From the NCBI RefSeq assembly GCF_000312045.1, contig NZ_HE978634.1, positions 489,192-553,191 of the forward strand: a stretch of DNA of 64,000 nucleotides, given 5' to 3'. The notes below the pieces were generated by a model. The model searched no databases, had not been told where the DNA came from, and worked only from the letters and a program-made list of their open reading frames with translations. Shown here piece by piece: positions 6,773 through 49,369 of this stretch. The DNA is from Noviherbaspirillum massiliense JC206 (lineage in GTDB: Bacteria > Pseudomonadota > Gammaproteobacteria > Burkholderiales > Burkholderiaceae_D). How positions within the stretch are numbered: position 1 is the stretch's first letter; the number at the start of each line of letters is the position of its first letter. The translations under genes were made by a program, and so were the position numbers.

Positions 6773-7030
6773 AACCGGGCTAAACCACGGTTTTATAAGT
6801 ATTTTTTCAACTATCCACAAGTCCTGTGGATAACTTTGTGGAGAAGGCTTTCTTTTCCTTTTGAGCAGGAAGTTTCTGTATGGGCGCAACAGGCGGCACA
6901 AAAGAATGGTCAAAAATATTCTTCTTTAGAATCAGTAGTTTAGCGAATTCTGCTCGCCTGCGCAAAATTACATCCTCTTACAAAGTTGTTGCTTTGTATC
7001 GAAAACTATGTTTGCCGGTTTTGTGAATAA
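6773..7030. repeat. Tandem non-coding unit A
   Basis: Opens with a hairpin AACCG (6773-6777)/CGGTT (6788-6792) whose loop contains GCTAA. Then follow a T-rich spacer, CTATCCACA (6811-6819), the inverted TGTGGATAA (6825-6833), ACTTTGTGGA, AAGGC, about 170 bp of AT-rich sequence, and TTTTGTGAATAAG (box 7022-7030). The order matches unit B throughout. Confidence 0.7.
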
Positions 7031-7206
7031 GTAAGTTTTGGAGGAATAAAAAAGCCGGATGTCAACAGTGAGAAGCAGAAAAATAATGGGCCGGACATTG
7101 CATGCTGCAAGGCACACAGGGAGTCAAGGGGCCTACCGCCGGCAAAAGGATGTCGGACTGGCATCTTTTGCCGTCCTTCCGTCCCAAAACTTAATGTCTT
7201 TTTTTC

Positions 7207-7457
7207 AAAACTGGAGCTAAGCCCCAGTTTTGTAAACGCTTTTTCAGCTATCCACAAAAACTGTGGAAAACTTTGTGGACAAGGCCTGCTTGACAACCGA
7301 AAAACCCAAGCGCCATGCGGGTTCCGGGGCGATGATGAATCGAAAAGCAGAAAATAGTTTGTGTAAAATCAAGGACTTAAAAATCGGTACACTCTAGAAA
7401 GGTTTACCTAAAAAAATTTTTTTTGATGCTTTGCACAAGCGCCGTTTTTGTGAATAA
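7207..7457. repeat. Tandem non-coding unit B
   Basis: Opens with hairpin AAAACTGG (7207-7214)/CCAGTTTT (7224-7231), again with GCTAA in the loop. It continues with T-rich spacer, CTATCCACA (7248-7256), TGTGGAAAA (7262-7270), ACTTTGTGGA, AAGGC, an AT-rich middle and TTTTTGTGAATAAG (box 7449-7457). Shared landmarks with unit A are in the same order and near-equal spacing, so the units are an old duplication. Confidence 0.7.
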
Positions 7458-29171: not shown

Positions 29172-29750
29172 TTAGCCGCTTGCCAACTGCGCGAGCCAGC
29201 GCCTTCCTTGCGGCCAGTCATGCAGGCCGCTGTCGGCGTTGATGTGGCCTTGTGCACCGATGGGACAAAAGCGCGCGCGCCAGTCAGCAGCCCAGGATTG
29301 CGCCCGCACCAGGTCGCACCAGGGGTCGTCGGATGATGCCGCGACGATCGCCGGGAAAGGCAAGGCAGCGCGCGGCATCGGGGCAAATCCGGAAGCGAAT
29401 GCGGAAAACCCATCCCGCTCGACATCGGGCGGCGCAACCAGCAATGCACCCCTGACTTTCTCCGCATGGCTTTTGTGACCGTGCTCCGCGGCCCACCAAA
29501 CAGTCAATGCGCATCCGAGGCTGTGCGCAGCGAGTATCACCGGACCATCCTGGGTTTCAATCGCTGCATCCAGAGTGGCTACCCAGTCGGAACGGCAAGG
29601 GCTGTCCCATTTCTGCTGTTGCACACGTTTTGCATTCGGCAGCATCGCTTCCCAATGGGTTTGCCAGTGGCCGGGGCCGGAATTGTAGAGGCCGGGAAGA
29701 AGCAGGATCGTCGCGCCCTCCAGGGCATTGCTTTCGAGGCCGGCGCTCAT
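29172..29750 (-). CDS. RBBP9/YdeN-type serine hydrolase
   Basis: 192 residues. ILLLPGLYNSGPGHWQTHWE is the family N-terminus, the nucleophile Ser is in LAAHSLGCALTVWW, the acid is in ASSDDPWC, and the His is in AQGHINADSGLHDWP. A small alpha/beta hydrolase of unknown substrate. Its start overlaps the parB stop by four bases (ATGA), so it is translated with the par operon. Confidence 0.88.
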   Translation of the reverse strand: MSAGLESNALEGATILLLPGLYNSGPGHWQTHWEAMLPNAKRVQQQKWDSPCRSDWVATLDAAIETQDGPVILAAHSLGCALTVWWAAEHGHKSHAEKVRGALLVAPPDVERDGFSAFASGFAPMPRAALPFPAIVAASSDDPWCDLVRAQSWAADWRARFCPIGAQGHINADSGLHDWPQGRRWLAQLASG

Positions 29751-30631
29751 GCAGCGCGCAGTTTGGCGATCACGACGTCCAGCACGTCGAGGTTGGCGAA
29801 GTCAATGATCAACTGGCCCTTGTTCTTCGCGCCCAGCTTGATCGAGACGGCGGTTGCGAGGGTATCGGACAGTTCCTCTTCAAGGCGGGCGATGTCGCGC
29901 GTTTTCTCTTTCTGGACGCGGGCCTTGCCTGTTGTGTCCTGCTCGGTGGTGGCCCGCACCACCAGCTTTTCCGCTTCGCGCACCGACATGCGCTTGGCAA
30001 GGATCTGGTTGGCCAGGGTGATTTGAGTCGCGGCGTCGACGGCCAGCAATGCACGAGCGTGGCCCATGTCGATGTCTCCCGCCATCAGCATGGTTTGTAC
30101 CGGCTTGGCGAGATTCAATAGACGCAACAGATTGGAGACGGCGCTGCGTGAGCGGCCGACTGCATTGGCCGCCTGTTCATGGGTGAAATTGAAATCGCTG
30201 ATCAGGCGGTGAATGCCTTGCGCTTCTTCCAGCGGATTCAAATCTTCGCGCTGAATGTTTTCGATCAGGGCCATGGCAGCGGCGGCCTGGTCATCGACAT
30301 CCTTGACCAGCACCGGCACTTCCGTCAGGCCGGCGATCTGGGCAGCGCGGAAGCGGCGTTCGCCGGCAATGATTTCATATTTGCCGTCGCCGTCGAGTGG
30401 ACGCACCAGAATGGGCTGCATCAAGCCCTGTGCCTTGATAGATGCGGCGAGCTCATTCAGGGCACCTTCATCCATGCGCGTGCGCGGCTGATATTTGCCG
30501 GCCTGCATTTGCGTGACACTCAGCGTGGAAGGCGCGCCTGCAACACTGGGCACGGCCTCGGCGATGTCCGACGAGCCTCCGAGCAAGGCATCCAGTCCGC
30601 GTCCCAGTCCCTTGGGTTTTTTCATGGCCAT
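29747..30631 (-). CDS. parB: Chromosome partitioning protein ParB (Spo0J)
   Basis: 294 residues. KKPKGLGRGLDALLGG is the ParA-interacting N-terminus; residues about 50-150 hold the CTP-binding ParB/Srx fold with GERRFRAA; FTHEQAANAVGRSRSAVSNLLRLL is the helix-turn-helix; the C-terminus is the dimerisation domain. It loads on parS, spreads and bridges DNA for chromosome segregation. Start is 9 bp after parA. The matching parS sites lie at 34767 and 34877, upstream of mnmG. Confidence 0.97.
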   Translation of the reverse strand: MAMKKPKGLGRGLDALLGGSSDIAEAVPSVAGAPSTLSVTQMQAGKYQPRTRMDEGALNELAASIKAQGLMQPILVRPLDGDGKYEIIAGERRFRAAQIAGLTEVPVLVKDVDDQAAAAMALIENIQREDLNPLEEAQGIHRLISDFNFTHEQAANAVGRSRSAVSNLLRLLNLAKPVQTMLMAGDIDMGHARALLAVDAATQITLANQILAKRMSVREAEKLVVRATTEQDTTGKARVQKEKTRDIARLEEELSDTLATAVSIKLGAKNKGQLIIDFANLDVLDVVIAKLRAA

Positions 30632-32728: not shown

Positions 32729-34654
32729 TCACGCTGCTGCCTGAGACGCGGCGAATTCCTTGAAGCCGCCCTTTTTCAGATGCACCAGCAACAAGGAAAT
32801 CGCCGCTGGGGTCACGCCGGAAATGCGCGACGCCTGTCCGAGGGTTTCCGGACGGTGCTTGTTCAACTTCTGCCGAACCTCGATCGATAATCCTTTGACT
32901 TCCATGTAATCGAGTGCGGCCGGCAGTTTCAGGTTTTCATAGTAGTCATGGCGTTCGACTTCGCGCGCCTGGCGGTCAATGTAGCCGGCGTACTTCACCT
33001 GGATTTCCACTTGCTCGCGCACGGCTTCGTCCGTGACACCAGGCCCGGCCAGGTTCTGCCCGTCTGCACCCTTGAGACTCATCAGGCATTCATAGCTGAC
33101 ATTCGGCCGGCGAAGCAAATCAGTGAGCGCGTACTCTCGCTCGATTGCCTTTCCCAGCACGCGTTGCGCCTCTGCCTCGGGAACCAGACGGGGATTGACC
33201 CATGTCGATTTGAGGCGTTCGAGCTCCCTTGCCACCGCTTCGCGCTTCCTCTCGAATACTTCCCACTGAGCATCGCTGATGCAGCCGAGCTGGCGCCCGA
33301 TTTCAGTCAGGCGCAGATCGGCGTTGTCTTCTCGCAAGCTCAAGCGGTATTCGGCACGGCTGGTGAACATCCGGTATGGCTCCTGCACGCCTTTGGTGAT
33401 CAGGTCGTCAACCAGAACGCCAAGATAGGCTTCGTCGCGCCGTGGCGTCCACGCTTCCCTGCCCTGCGTGTACAAGGCGGCATTCAATCCGGCCAGCAAG
33501 CCTTGGGCGGCGGCCTCTTCGTAGCCTGTAGTGCCATTGATCTGGCCGGCGAAGAACAGTCCCTGGATCGCCTTGGTTTCCAGCGACGCTTTCAAGCCGC
33601 GCGGATCGAAATAGTCATACTCGATCGCATAGCCCGGCCGCAGGATATGCGCGTTTTCCAAGCCGCGAATCGAGTGCACCAACTCAAGCTGCACATCGAA
33701 AGGCAGGCTGGTGGAGATACCGTTCGGGTAAAACTCGTTGGTAGTCAGCCCTTCCGGCTCTAGGAAGATCTGGTGCGATTGCTTGTCGGCAAAACGATGG
33801 ATCTTGTCTTCAATGGAAGGACAGTAGCGCGGACCGACGCCTTCAATGACGCCGGTGTACATCGGGCTGCGATCGAGGCCGCCGCGGATGATGTCATGGG
33901 TGCGTTCATTGGTATGTGTAACCCAGCATGGCAGCTGCTGCGGATGCAAGTCCACCGAGCCCATCACTGAAAACACCGGAATCGGATCGAGATCGCCCGG
34001 TTGCACTTCCATGACAGAAAAGTCGATGGTGCGACCATCGATGCGTGGCGGGGTGCCTGTTTTCAAGCGCCCCTGCGGCAGCTTCAACTCCTTCAGGCGC
34101 GCAGACAGGGAAACGGCCGGCGGATCACCGGCGCGCCCTGCCGAATAGTTGTTCAGACCGACGTGAATTTTTCCGTCGAGAAAAGTACCAGCGGTCAACA
34201 CCACGGCACGACTGCGAAACCGGATTCCGACTTGCGTGACGGCCCCCACGACCCGATCGCCCTCCACCATCAGGTCGTCTACCGCCTGCTGGAAGAGCCA
34301 CAGATTTGGCTGATTTTCCAGGCGTGAACGAATCGCTTGCTTGTATAGTATGCGGTCGGCCTGAGCACGGGTCGCTCGTACGGCGGGCCCCTTGGAGGAA
34401 TTGAGGATGCGGAACTGAATACCCGCCTCGTCGGTGGCAATTGCCATGGCACCACCCAAGGCGTCGACTTCCTTTACCAAATGCCCCTTGCCAATACCCC
34501 CGATGGAAGGATTGCACGACATTTGACCAAGGGTTTCGATATTGTGAGTGAGCAACAATGTCTTCTGCCCCATTCGGGCAGAAGACAAGGCAGCTTCGGT
34601 GCCGGCGTGGCCACCGCCAACGACGATAACGTCAAACTCTGTAGGGAAAAGCAT
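32729..34654 (-). CDS. mnmG: tRNA uridine-34 carboxymethylaminomethyl-modifying subunit MnmG (GidA)
   Basis: 641 residues. FAD-binding [21 protein letters not shown] at the N-terminus; the signatures [27 protein letters not shown] and [17 protein letters not shown] are diagnostic, and the C-terminal helical MnmE-binding part ends [19 protein letters not shown]. With MnmE it modifies U34 of several tRNAs. First gene of the mnmG-rsmG-lysE-parA-parB-hydrolase operon; two parS sites lie upstream. Confidence 0.97.
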
Positions 34655-34766: not shown

Positions 34767-34782
34767 TGTTTCACGTGAAACC
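34767..34782. promoter_or_regulatory. parS site, 15 of 16 match
   Basis: TGTTTCACGTGAAACC matches the ParB-binding palindrome TGTTTCACGTGAAACA except for the last base. It lies in the 246-bp region upstream of mnmG. Confidence 0.93.
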
Positions 34783-34876
34783 TTCTTGGGAGTGCAAAGC
34801 ATCCCGTCCTGCCCCATCCTCAAAGGTAGCCAAATGCGGATGCATGTGCACGCCCTAATCAAAGCCAGACAAGAAA

Positions 34877-34892
34877 TGTTTCACGTGAAACA
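34877..34892. promoter_or_regulatory. parS site, perfect palindrome
   Basis: TGTTTCACGTGAAACA is a perfect match to the chromosomal parS consensus. It is 110 bp from the first site and just after the TSUP gene. ParB from the nearby operon is the expected ligand. Confidence 0.96.
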
Positions 34893-47067: not shown

Positions 47068-47943
47068 GTGGACCTTACCCAGTTACGGGCCTTCGTGACC
47101 ATCGCCCGCGAAGGCAACCTGACCCGCGCGGCCGAACGCCTGCACCTGACGCAACCGGCCGTCAGCCTGCAGATCAAGTCACTGCAAGCCAGCCTCAATC
47201 TGCAATTGTTCACCCGTACCCCGAACGGCATGATCCTGAGCGACGACGGCGCCAAGTTGCTGCCCTTTGCCGAACGGGTGCTGGATAGCGCCGCCGAATT
47301 CCGGCAGCGCGCCAATGCGCTGCATTCCACCTTGTCCGGCACCCTGGCCATCGGCACCATCCTCGATCCGGAATTCATCCGCCTCGGTGCTTTCCTGAAG
47401 CGCCTGGTGGAAACCTATCCGCAACTCTCGACCCAATTGCAGCATGGTATGTCGGGCTGGGTACTGCAGCAAGTCAGAGCCGGCGCACTCGATGTCGGCT
47501 ATTACCTCGGCACGCCCGGCAAGGATGTGTATGCCCAGACCCTGACTTCCTTCACCTACAACGTGGTTGCGCCCCAAGGCTGGAAAACCCGGGTCGCCGG
47601 CCAGGATTGGCCGGCCCTGGCGAAACTCCCATGGATCTGGACGCCGCCGGAATCGGCGCACCACCGCCTGCTGACCAAAACCTTTGCCCATTACAAGGTC
47701 ACGCCGAACAAGGTCGCGCTGGTCGACCAGGAACCTTCCATGCTCGACCTGGTGAAATCCGGTGTTGGCCTGTCCCTCATCCGGGAATCAATTGCCTTGC
47801 GGGAAGCCCATGCCCATGGACTGGTGATTGCCGATGCGGTCAGCCTGTCGATCGACCTGTCTTTCATCACACTTGCCAAGCGGCGCCATGAAGGCGCCAT
47901 CGATGCGGTGTTTTCATTACTGCAAGCTTTATGGAAAACCTGA
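47068..47943 (+). CDS. LysR-family transcriptional regulator
   Basis: 291 residues from a GTG start with AAGGAGA upstream. N-terminal winged helix-turn-helix [40 protein letters not shown]; the ligand-binding domain follows to the end. Divergent from mmsA; the ligand and targets are probably in that pathway. Cytoplasmic. Confidence 0.93.
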
Positions 47944-47948
47944 AGCCC

Positions 47949-48156
47949 GGTGGATAAGTCCGGGAACAGAGCTGTGGAGAAATGTGAACAAGCACGTAAA
48001 TCGACAGGGTCACGATTCTTGTCCCGAAAACATCCGCTTGCCATACAAGGTTTGTACCCGTGTTTACACATGCACTAACCAACTGATTCGAAAAAGGAAT
48101 CCGGGGTTTTCCACAGAAAGAAGCCAGTGTTAACTATTACTACCATTTGTATACCT
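47949..48156. repeat. Duplicated non-coding unit C
   Basis: Begins with an inverted DnaA-type box (47949-47957), then CGATT, TTGTCC, TGCCATACAAGG with TTTGTACCC, a second box in direct orientation (48107-48115), and TTACTACCATTTGTATACCT at 48137-48156. Every landmark recurs in unit D at about 364 bp. Confidence 0.75.
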
Positions 48157-48312
48157 GACTTCTTATAAAACCACTTCTGTCTCCTCGTCACGGCGTGAAA
48201 GCATGCCGAACTGGAAATTCTGCAGAAACTCTCTTTGCCCTGAAAATTGCATTCCTGATAAATTCCAGATGCCGTGTTCTTTCGAAGCTTGCAAAATTGG
48301 GCTGTGCCCTCT

Positions 48313-48519
48313 TGTGGATAAAAAGCCGAAATTCGCATGCACTGAATGTGCATAAACCCCTCGGCAAGCGCGATTACTTTTTTTGTCCAGAATTCTTCCG
48401 TGTGCCATACAGGATTTATACCTGTACTTTTTTTTGACCTAAATAATTGATTCACTACGAAGAATCTGAGTTATCCACAAAAAACCCGACTGTAAACAAT
48501 TACTACCATTTGTATACCT
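48313..48519. repeat. Duplicated non-coding unit D
   Basis: Begins with TGTGGATAA (48313-48321), then CGATT, TTGTCC, TGCCATACAGG with a hairpin TACAGG/CCTGTA, a perfect TTATCCACA (48471-48479) and TTACTACCATTTGTATACCT at 48500-48519, identical to unit C over 21 bases including the preceding A. The two boxes span 167 bp, exactly as in unit C. Confidence 0.75.
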
Positions 48520-48595
48520 AACCTTTGTAAACACCTTAAAACATTTTCAACATCGCCCTCATCGCTGGAAAGCAAAGGAGCAAATCCTTGAAAGA

Positions 48596-49369
48596 ATGCC
48601 AATGACTTCTTCGATACCGAAACTGGGATTGATCAGCGCCATGGACCAGGAACAGGCTGGGCTGGTGGACTTGCTGCAGGAAGCTCGCCGAACCGTGCGC
48701 GGACAGCGCGAGTTCATCAGCGGCCGCCTGGAACAGCTGGAATGTGTCTGTGTGCTATCCCGCCTTGGCAAGGTAGCCGCCGCGGCGACGGCCGCGACCT
48801 TGATTGAAGGCTTTGGCGTGACGCATATCGTATTTACCGGGGTGGCCGGCAGTGCCGATCCGTCCGTGCGGATTGGCGACATGGTCGTGGCCGACCGGCT
48901 GATCCAGCATGACATGAATGCCAGTCCGCTGTTTCCGCGCTTCGAAGTCCCGCTGACCGGGCAAGCCAGCTTCGCGGCCGACCGCCCCTTGTCGGATCGC
49001 TTGATGGGGGAAGCAGACAGCTTCCTTCGGAATGAATTACGGCAAGCATTGGCCGAAGAGGACTTGCGTGCTTTCCGGCTGGATCAGCCCAGGGTGCACC
49101 GCGGCTTGATCGCCAGCGGCGATGAATTTATCCACAGCCGTGACCGGCTCGATGCGCTCAAAACCAGCTTGCCCGATGTGCTTGCGGTGGAAATGGAAGG
49201 TGCCGCGCTTGCCCAAGTCTGTTTCGAGTTCGGCGTGCCCTTTGCCGTGATCCGCACGATTTCCGACAATGCCGATCACGAAGCGCCGCTGAATTTCCTG
49301 CAATTCATGGACCGGGTGGCCGCGCGCTATGCCTTCCATGTGATGCAGCGCTTCTGCCGGGGTGGCTGA
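48596..49369 (+). CDS. mtnN: 5'-methylthioadenosine/S-adenosylhomocysteine nucleosidase-like protein
   Basis: 257 residues from ATG 48596 (ATG 48602 is an alternative). PKLGLISAMDQEQAGLVDLL, the purine site TGVAGSADPSVRIGDMVVADR, the substrate site AVEMEGAALAQVCFEFGVPFAVIRTISDNAD with the catalytic Asp, and a C-terminal helix identify the family. It cleaves the glycosidic bond of methylthioadenosine and S-adenosylhomocysteine. Longer than the about 230 residues of E. coli MtnN because of an insert around 140-170, so a variant substrate is possible. Single gene, convergent with putA. Confidence 0.85.
   Translation: MPMTSSIPKLGLISAMDQEQAGLVDLLQEARRTVRGQREFISGRLEQLECVCVLSRLGKVAAAATAATLIEGFGVTHIVFTGVAGSADPSVRIGDMVVADRLIQHDMNASPLFPRFEVPLTGQASFAADRPLSDRLMGEADSFLRNELRQALAEEDLRAFRLDQPRVHRGLIASGDEFIHSRDRLDALKTSLPDVLAVEMEGAALAQVCFEFGVPFAVIRTISDNADHEAPLNFLQFMDRVAARYAFHVMQRFCRGG

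Follow-up and report, generated by a model that had tools for sequence, protein, structure and literature searches.

The 0.65-kb gap between a LysR-type regulator gene and a 5'-methylthioadenosine/S-adenosylhomocysteine (MTA/SAH) nucleosidase gene in Noviherbaspirillum massiliense JC206 is, on the evidence of its sequence, very probably the chromosomal replication origin (oriC) of this Oxalobacteraceae bacterium, made up of two complete modules resembling that of E. coli. The gap lies in a 64,000-nucleotide stretch of contig NZ_HE978634.1 (positions 489,192 to 553,191; hereafter the window), and feature positions are those of the window unless stated otherwise. The left-hand gene (47068..47943, + strand) was recognised through LysR-family NCBIfam models, none of which was over its cut-off among the matches listed, and the right-hand gene (48596..49369, + strand) matched NF004079 with 271.5 bits at a cut-off of 169. 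Bacterial chromosomes are taken to have one oriC, which is usually sought at dnaA. What seems to be new here is a family origin situated outside the dnaA-dnaN gap, with two or three old, complete modules in most of the genomes searched. We observed the anatomy of the element, its conservation, its similarity to the elements of dnaA-dnaN gaps and to E. coli oriC, and, in relatives, its position opposite dif and at the skew minimum.

Anatomy of the two units

The gap contains two non-coding units in the same direction, C (47949-48115) and D (48313-48479), offset by 364 bp. Each is bounded by an inverted and a direct DnaA box, whose starts are 158 bp apart and which span 167 bp together with the DNA between them. 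These coordinates and the box geometry had been given in an earlier sequence-only reading of the window and were reproduced here, as was the 21-base block ATTACTACCATTTGTATACCT, which can be read off the sequence in identical form in C (48136-48156) and D (48499-48519). Along each unit, the inverted box is followed by further box-like sites, an IHF-type site, the direct box, a gap of 18 nt (C) or 20 nt (D) to the start of a trio-like run of CTA/TTA repeats, and an A+T-rich tail.

The predicted origin module C (47949..48175, + strand), with its DnaA-box array, IHF-type site, DnaA box, trio block and A+T-rich tail, matched model R1 at 47950-48160 (114.2 bits; 112.3 bits with nhmmer). Its outer inverted box GGTGGATAA (47949..47957, - strand) has one mismatch to TGTGGATAA, and two inner inverted DnaA-type boxes follow on the same strand (47973..47991), TGTGGAGAA with one mismatch and TGTGAACAA with two. 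The IHF-type site (48076..48088, - strand) is one change away from WATCAANNNNTTR, the consensus in an excerpt of PMC10380432, and its TGAT starts 23 bp before the direct box TTTTCCACA (48107..48115, + strand), which has one mismatch and stands beside the presumed unwinding side. The DnaA-trio-like run CTA TTA CTA CCA (48134..48145, + strand) is of the 3'-GAT-5' type on the lower strand, as trios are defined in an excerpt of PMC6669920, and overlaps the 21-base block. The A+T-rich tail (48132..48175, no strand assigned; 30% G+C) is the presumed unwinding element.

Module D (48313..48540, + strand; model R1 match at 48313-48526, 105.5 bits) has the same layout. The outer inverted box (48313..48321, - strand) is a perfect TGTGGATAA, the inner inverted DnaA-type box TGTGCATAA (48347..48355, - strand) has one mismatch, and a weak direct DnaA-type box with two mismatches, TTGTCCAGA (48383..48391, + strand), corresponds to what had been noted earlier as a TTGTCC island. 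Both the IHF-type site WATCAANNNNTTR (48440..48452, - strand) and the direct box TTATCCACA (48471..48479, + strand) are perfect. The trio-like run TTA CTA CCA (48500..48508, + strand) lies inside the 21-base block, and the tail (48495..48540, no strand assigned; 29% G+C) is again the presumed unwinding element.

DnaA boxes with up to two mismatches number eight in the two units, four in each, and two of the four perfect boxes of the window fall in unit D; together, C and D present the cluster of DnaA boxes, consensus ones included, by which an oriC is recognised. Their tails have 29-30% G+C against approximately 55-64% in 2-kb windows and, taken by composition alone, represent the adjacent A+T-rich segment of an oriC, a putative unwinding element. 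GATC does not occur within the two modules. With regard to chance, the window has two box pairs at 150-166 bp with at most two mismatches in total, against an average of 0.025 in order-1 simulated windows. None of 40 simulated windows had a pair at exactly 158 bp, and the box pairs of C and D are therefore not expected by chance.

Conservation, age and relatives of the units

By plain DNA similarity, 10 of 39 relatives were matched (11 of 40 with JC206 itself counted). Searching with nine aligned nucleosidase proteins led to 80 named loci (the best 80 of 521), mainly from Oxalobacteraceae (Massilia, Janthinobacterium, Duganella, Noviherbaspirillum, Pseudoduganella, Rugamonas and others, with some MAGs). 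Profile searches over the window and these loci gave 191 hits; one overlapping hit of 27 bits (L066) was left out, and 190 units were retained, two of them from the window. Among the best 80 of 521 loci, three units were found in 37, two in 38, one in a single locus and none in four, at least one unit thus being present at 76 of 80.

In the full set of 190 units (window plus the best 80 of 521 loci), the box spacing is 156-160 bp without exception and 158 bp in 86. The exact spacing claimed in the sequence-only reading holds for the two window units, while among relatives it is near-constant. The direct box is perfect in 168 units and the outer inverted box in 122, and the tail has a mean G+C content of 24.7%. 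At the IHF-type site, AA at -30/-29 and TGA at -23 to -21 are conserved at 93-100%, and WATCARNNNNTTR was found at that one position in 63 of the 190 units, as against 0.03% of single-base shuffles at positions 25-45. Using a simple pattern, trios were found within 16 nt of the box in 92 units. The most conserved columns are the DnaA-box, IHF-type and trio positions, and the conserved islands between the boxes proved to be real, with TTTGTCC, the IHF-type site and the trio block kept across units. A coding reading of the units was rejected: open frames overlap them, but the spacing shifts by single bases between relatives, a difference ill suited to a kept reading frame.

A sequence-only model of the unit, built from 42 units, matched 237 of 244 family genomes and 37 of 40 genera, with 193 genomes matched at two or more places. 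One match was found in 44 genomes, two in 139, three in 53 and four in one (n=237), counts that include a few weak or overlapping matches (the fourth in G168, 21.6 bits; the third in G125, 21.3 bits, on the opposite strand over a unit). All 15 genomes searched from the genus have two matches each. In JC206 itself the model matched exactly two places in the window and two in the whole genome, the same ones, with no third match of the model in this genome.

Each of the 188 units at the named loci (best 80 of 521) was compared with those of other genera, and in 151 cases its closest counterpart there occupied the same rank relative to the nucleosidase gene (first with first in 68 of 76, second with second in 53 of 62, third with third in 27 of 37, and opposite-strand units in 3 of 13). 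The copies therefore look old, and the pattern suggests long-kept, separate lineages for the first three ranks rather than recent duplication. The two window units are without a close partner, with approximately 60% identity at best. Selection on function and not mere duplication, as had been proposed for the pair, is supported by this agreement of ranks and by the occurrence of the unit throughout the family.

Some loci deviate in arrangement. At L054, L059, L070, L051 and L061, one of the modules is read from the opposite strand; it either stands back to back with the other module or lies past the nucleosidase gene. No unit was found near the nucleosidase gene at L043, L067, L072 and L075 (4 of the best 80 of 521 loci), where the origin may have moved again; L072 spans only 1.1 kb upstream.

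The unit model also matched outside the family. Of 200 genomes of the order, 130 were matched; at least seven of the 200 belong to the same family, six of which match, and matches outside the family are weaker than those within. When the 14 best-scoring loci of other families were fetched, 10 matches lay between dnaA and dnaN, and four had neither gene within approximately 1.5 kb. The annotated oriC of E. coli was the top match of the model in the surrounding 25 kb (13.9 bits, E=6e-4). In this alignment the R1 box falls on the direct box, and TTGAT starts 24 bp before it, as TGAT does at 23 bp in C and D. The IHF consensus pattern had no match at the E. coli oriC locus, and we take the aligned TTGAT core to be the E. 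coli IHF site. The units thus display sequence similarity to recognised origins, which often lie beside dnaA in the rpmH-dnaA-dnaN cluster (PMC4403523). Judged by homology to the dnaA-dnaN gap elements and to E. coli oriC, the units are very probably an origin.

Position on the chromosome

In Janthinobacterium sp. LM6, the cumulative GC-skew minimum over 1-610 kb is at 353,712, and three units are located at 354,911-356,062, 1.2 kb away; dnaA is at 1 kb. In the genome of JC206 the lowest point between 300 and 770 kb is at 549,634, which puts the units (contig positions 537,141-537,717) 12 kb away; around them the skew is uneven and rises at approximately 490-520 kb. Within the stretches covered, the units are at or near the skew minimum in these two genomes, as expected of an oriC. 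Skew in 20-kb samples from six further genomes turned from minus to plus at the units in G205, with one of six samples there out of line, and was weak or mixed at the units in the other five.

A dif-like site was found once in each of eight genomes searched. The distances of the units from the dif antipode in single-contig genomes, with those of dnaA in parentheses, were 9 (364) kb in LM6, 15 (404) kb in G205, 20 (344) kb in G125, 37 (115) kb in G004, 45 (337) kb in G095, 90 (630) kb in G015 and 1,165 (1,954) kb in G255. The units are therefore opposite dif in six of the seven, 9-90 kb (0.15-1.5%) off, whereas dnaA is 115-630 kb off. In G255, which departs from this balance, the units are 1.16 Mb (19%) from the antipode with arms of 1.84 and 4.17 Mb, and dnaA is further off still. 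The arms are also unbalanced in the JC206 assembly as it stands: this unclosed assembly totals 4.19 Mb, and the contig in question, of 3.15 Mb, has the units at 537 kb and a dif-like match (two mismatches) at 1,582 kb. A plus-to-minus skew change at 32 kb of the window was considered as a terminus, a reading opposed by the longer skew curve and by the dif-like site at 1,582 kb. In LM6, KOPS-like words turn near 200 kb and not at 355 kb, in small counts.

The neighbourhood contains genes that lie near origins in many bacteria, namely parS, parB, mnmG and ATP synthase genes. Two parS sites (34767..34892, no strand assigned), with one and zero mismatches to TGTTTCACGTGAAACA, which we take to be the consensus, are 13 kb from module C, where none are expected by chance. 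parB (29747..30631, - strand; TIGR00180, 198 bits), mnmG (32729..34654, - strand; TIGR00136, 913.5 bits) and parS are all within 19 kb of the units, and an ATP synthase gene is also present in the window. In LM6, mnmG starts 11 kb and parB 15 kb from the units, and mnmG and atp are nearby at the E. coli oriC locus. Among 20 family loci fetched around units, the nucleosidase gene was found within approximately 1.5 kb in 15, a LysR gene in eight and neither in three; the gene neighbourhood of the units is common but not universal.

As to dnaA, the gene is located at 3,096,892 in JC206, on the same contig as the units, 2.56 Mb apart in contig coordinates and 0.59 Mb if this contig formed a closed circle. 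Among 34 single-contig family genomes, the distance between units and dnaA is at least 152 kb in 16 and does not exceed approximately 70 kb in 18, with rounding of lengths leaving an uncertainty of approximately 50 kb on some of the smaller values; in G236, G097 and G063 the units are only 7-20 kb from dnaA. An origin at dnaA was considered and rejected, as the unit model had no match at the dnaA loci of eight members, JC206 included. The origin seems to have left the dnaA-dnaN gap in this family, by differing distances. In JC206, a perfect DnaA box is present between dnaA and dnaN (C1:3096338) and another upstream of dnaA (C1:3097923), possibly a remnant of the ancestral origin site or elements of dnaA autoregulation. 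Excerpts of the respective reports place the likely origin at dnaA-dnaN-gyrB in Herbaspirillum seropedicae (PMC3093359) and Janthinobacterium sp. HH01 (PMC3566124). Since the units are only 7-20 kb from dnaA in some members, the error of such a placement may be small for a given species. According to an excerpt of PMC2864759, Cupriavidus metallidurans has a skew transition next to a DnaA-box cluster, 90 kb away from dnaA, and the idea of an origin away from dnaA in this order is therefore not new.

Other clusters of DnaA boxes were observed. At 6811-7457 of the window, eight boxes with at most one mismatch lie between priA and a hemE-like gene; the origin model does not match there, and the motif TGTGGANAACTTTGTGGA occurs at two places 437 bp apart. 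LM6 has a seven-box cluster with a single TGTGGANAACTTTGTGGA motif between these genes (113,207-113,801). The cluster of the window is possibly a DnaA-titrating site or an old origin, and a putative origin adjacent to hemE in Ralstonia pickettii is listed by Gao 2015 (PMC4403523). LM6 also has dense clusters of DnaA-box-like sites at 330,868-331,140 (four boxes) and 341,064-341,352 (six boxes), within 25 kb of the units.

Proposed mechanism, alternatives and known systems

From the analogy to the origins of E. coli and B. subtilis, each unit is most likely a full origin module. We infer protein binding, DNA opening and the participation of both modules as follows. Within a module, DnaA-ATP would occupy the left-end inverted boxes as well as the right-end direct box, and IHF would bend the intervening DNA so that DnaA bound on the left is carried over to the right. 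From the right-hand box, a DnaA filament would extend onto the trio-like repeats and open the A+T-rich tail, where helicase would be loaded and two forks would start. Two modules in a row could provide two opportunities for opening at each origin locus, a larger helicase-loading platform or robustness to the DnaA level. In E. coli, according to an excerpt of PMC10380432, an IHF-induced bend brings the opened strand to DnaA; in B. subtilis, according to an excerpt of PMC6669920, boxes load DnaA onto trios and upstream boxes deliver DnaA via a loop. For the family, we regard it as conceivable, at rather less than even chances, that each chromosome has a row of two or three complete oriC modules, every one of them competent on its own and the whole detached from dnaA, the number of modules at the one origin locus being a built-in control of initiation.

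A variant of the origin reading, compatible with it and about evenly balanced in our estimation, is that only one module fires, with the other serving as an accessory DnaA platform of the kind found in bipartite origins or representing a spare copy. It would agree with the single mismatch in each outer box of module C, with none in D, and with the 44 of 237 family genomes that have a single match; in the split origins described so far, to the extent covered by an excerpt of PMC4285127, one subregion has the unwinding element. On the other hand, neither module lacks an unwinding-side box, an IHF-type site, a trio block or an A+T-rich tail of its own, the spacing is kept at 156-160 bp in 190 of 190 units, and the copies look old (same rank in 151 of 188; best 80 of 521 loci).

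Three roles had been named in the sequence-only reading, among which the origin is now strongly supported by homology, conservation and position; an individual copy may be a DnaA-controlled element other than an origin. We consider a DnaA-titrating or DnaA-recycling site like datA or DARS improbable. Minimal datA and DARS2 of E. coli do combine DnaA boxes with an IHF site (excerpt of PMC10380432), but the units resemble the dnaA-dnaN element and E. coli oriC and have an unwinding-type tail, in relatives they are at the skew minimum and dif antipode, and no third model match exists in their own genome. The third role, paired non-coding RNAs, has almost nothing in its favour beyond the complementarity of the outer boxes, which could pair as a closing stem. 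An Rfam search of the window gave no match, and the consensus structure calculated with RNAalifold on 42 diverse aligned units contained no pairs, supporting neither a structured RNA nor the TACAGG-type hairpin suggested earlier; the best-kept columns are those of the DnaA boxes, the IHF-type site and the trios. Repeated origin-like blocks could also come from an integrated plasmid or mobile origin. This is just as implausible, given that units occur in 37 of 40 family genera, that 15 of 20 family loci tested have the nucleosidase gene no more than 1.5 kb from the unit, and that no plasmid replication gene was recognised by eye among the neighbouring open frames.

Returning to the reading of C and D as oriC, a family-wide origin of two or three homologous modules, long kept and away from dnaA, would, if true, correct annotations and provide a natural system for asking why cells keep several complete origin modules and whether each fires. 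The departure of an origin from the dnaA-dnaN gap would be recorded in the range of distances between units and dnaA in the family. Among the literature matches listed, none described this origin; DoriC and subscription papers were outside the scope, and a DoriC prediction may exist.

The modules share with E. coli oriC the opposed perfect DnaA boxes at the ends, as in D; we take those of E. coli to be R1 and R4. Further likenesses (see also an excerpt of PMC10380432) are a TTGAT core 24 bp before the unwinding-side box, an unwinding element outside that box, and mnmG nearby. They differ in that the end boxes of E. coli are 180 bp apart in one copy, compared to 158 bp in two copies here, and in the CTA/TTA repeats and absence of GATC, which are features of the window modules. 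The dnaA-dnaN gap element of other Burkholderiales families is found by the same model (10 of the 14 best-scoring loci fetched) but lies beside dnaA, whereas here there are two copies away from it. In the basal origin unwinding system (BUS), a DnaA box is likewise followed by trios of the 3'-GAT-5' type. The box-trio gaps of C (18 nt) and D (20 nt) exceed the 16-nt limit of the published search (excerpt of PMC8287927), and the units are therefore not classed as BUS as defined there. The bipartite origins of B. subtilis and H. pylori also have more than one DnaA-box cluster at one origin, but their known halves are unlike and one has the unwinding element (excerpt of PMC4285127), whereas the halves here are homologous, each with a presumed unwinding element. 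Putative double origins, some arising by duplication, were discussed by Gao 2015 (PMC4403523) and resemble the present case in that a chromosome has at least two origin-like regions, which are close together in Acidaminococcus fermentans and identical by duplication in M. bovis BCG. Those listed are single cases with a dnaA, hemE or parB gene, whereas the modules described here are short, lack a dnaA gene and occur family-wide.
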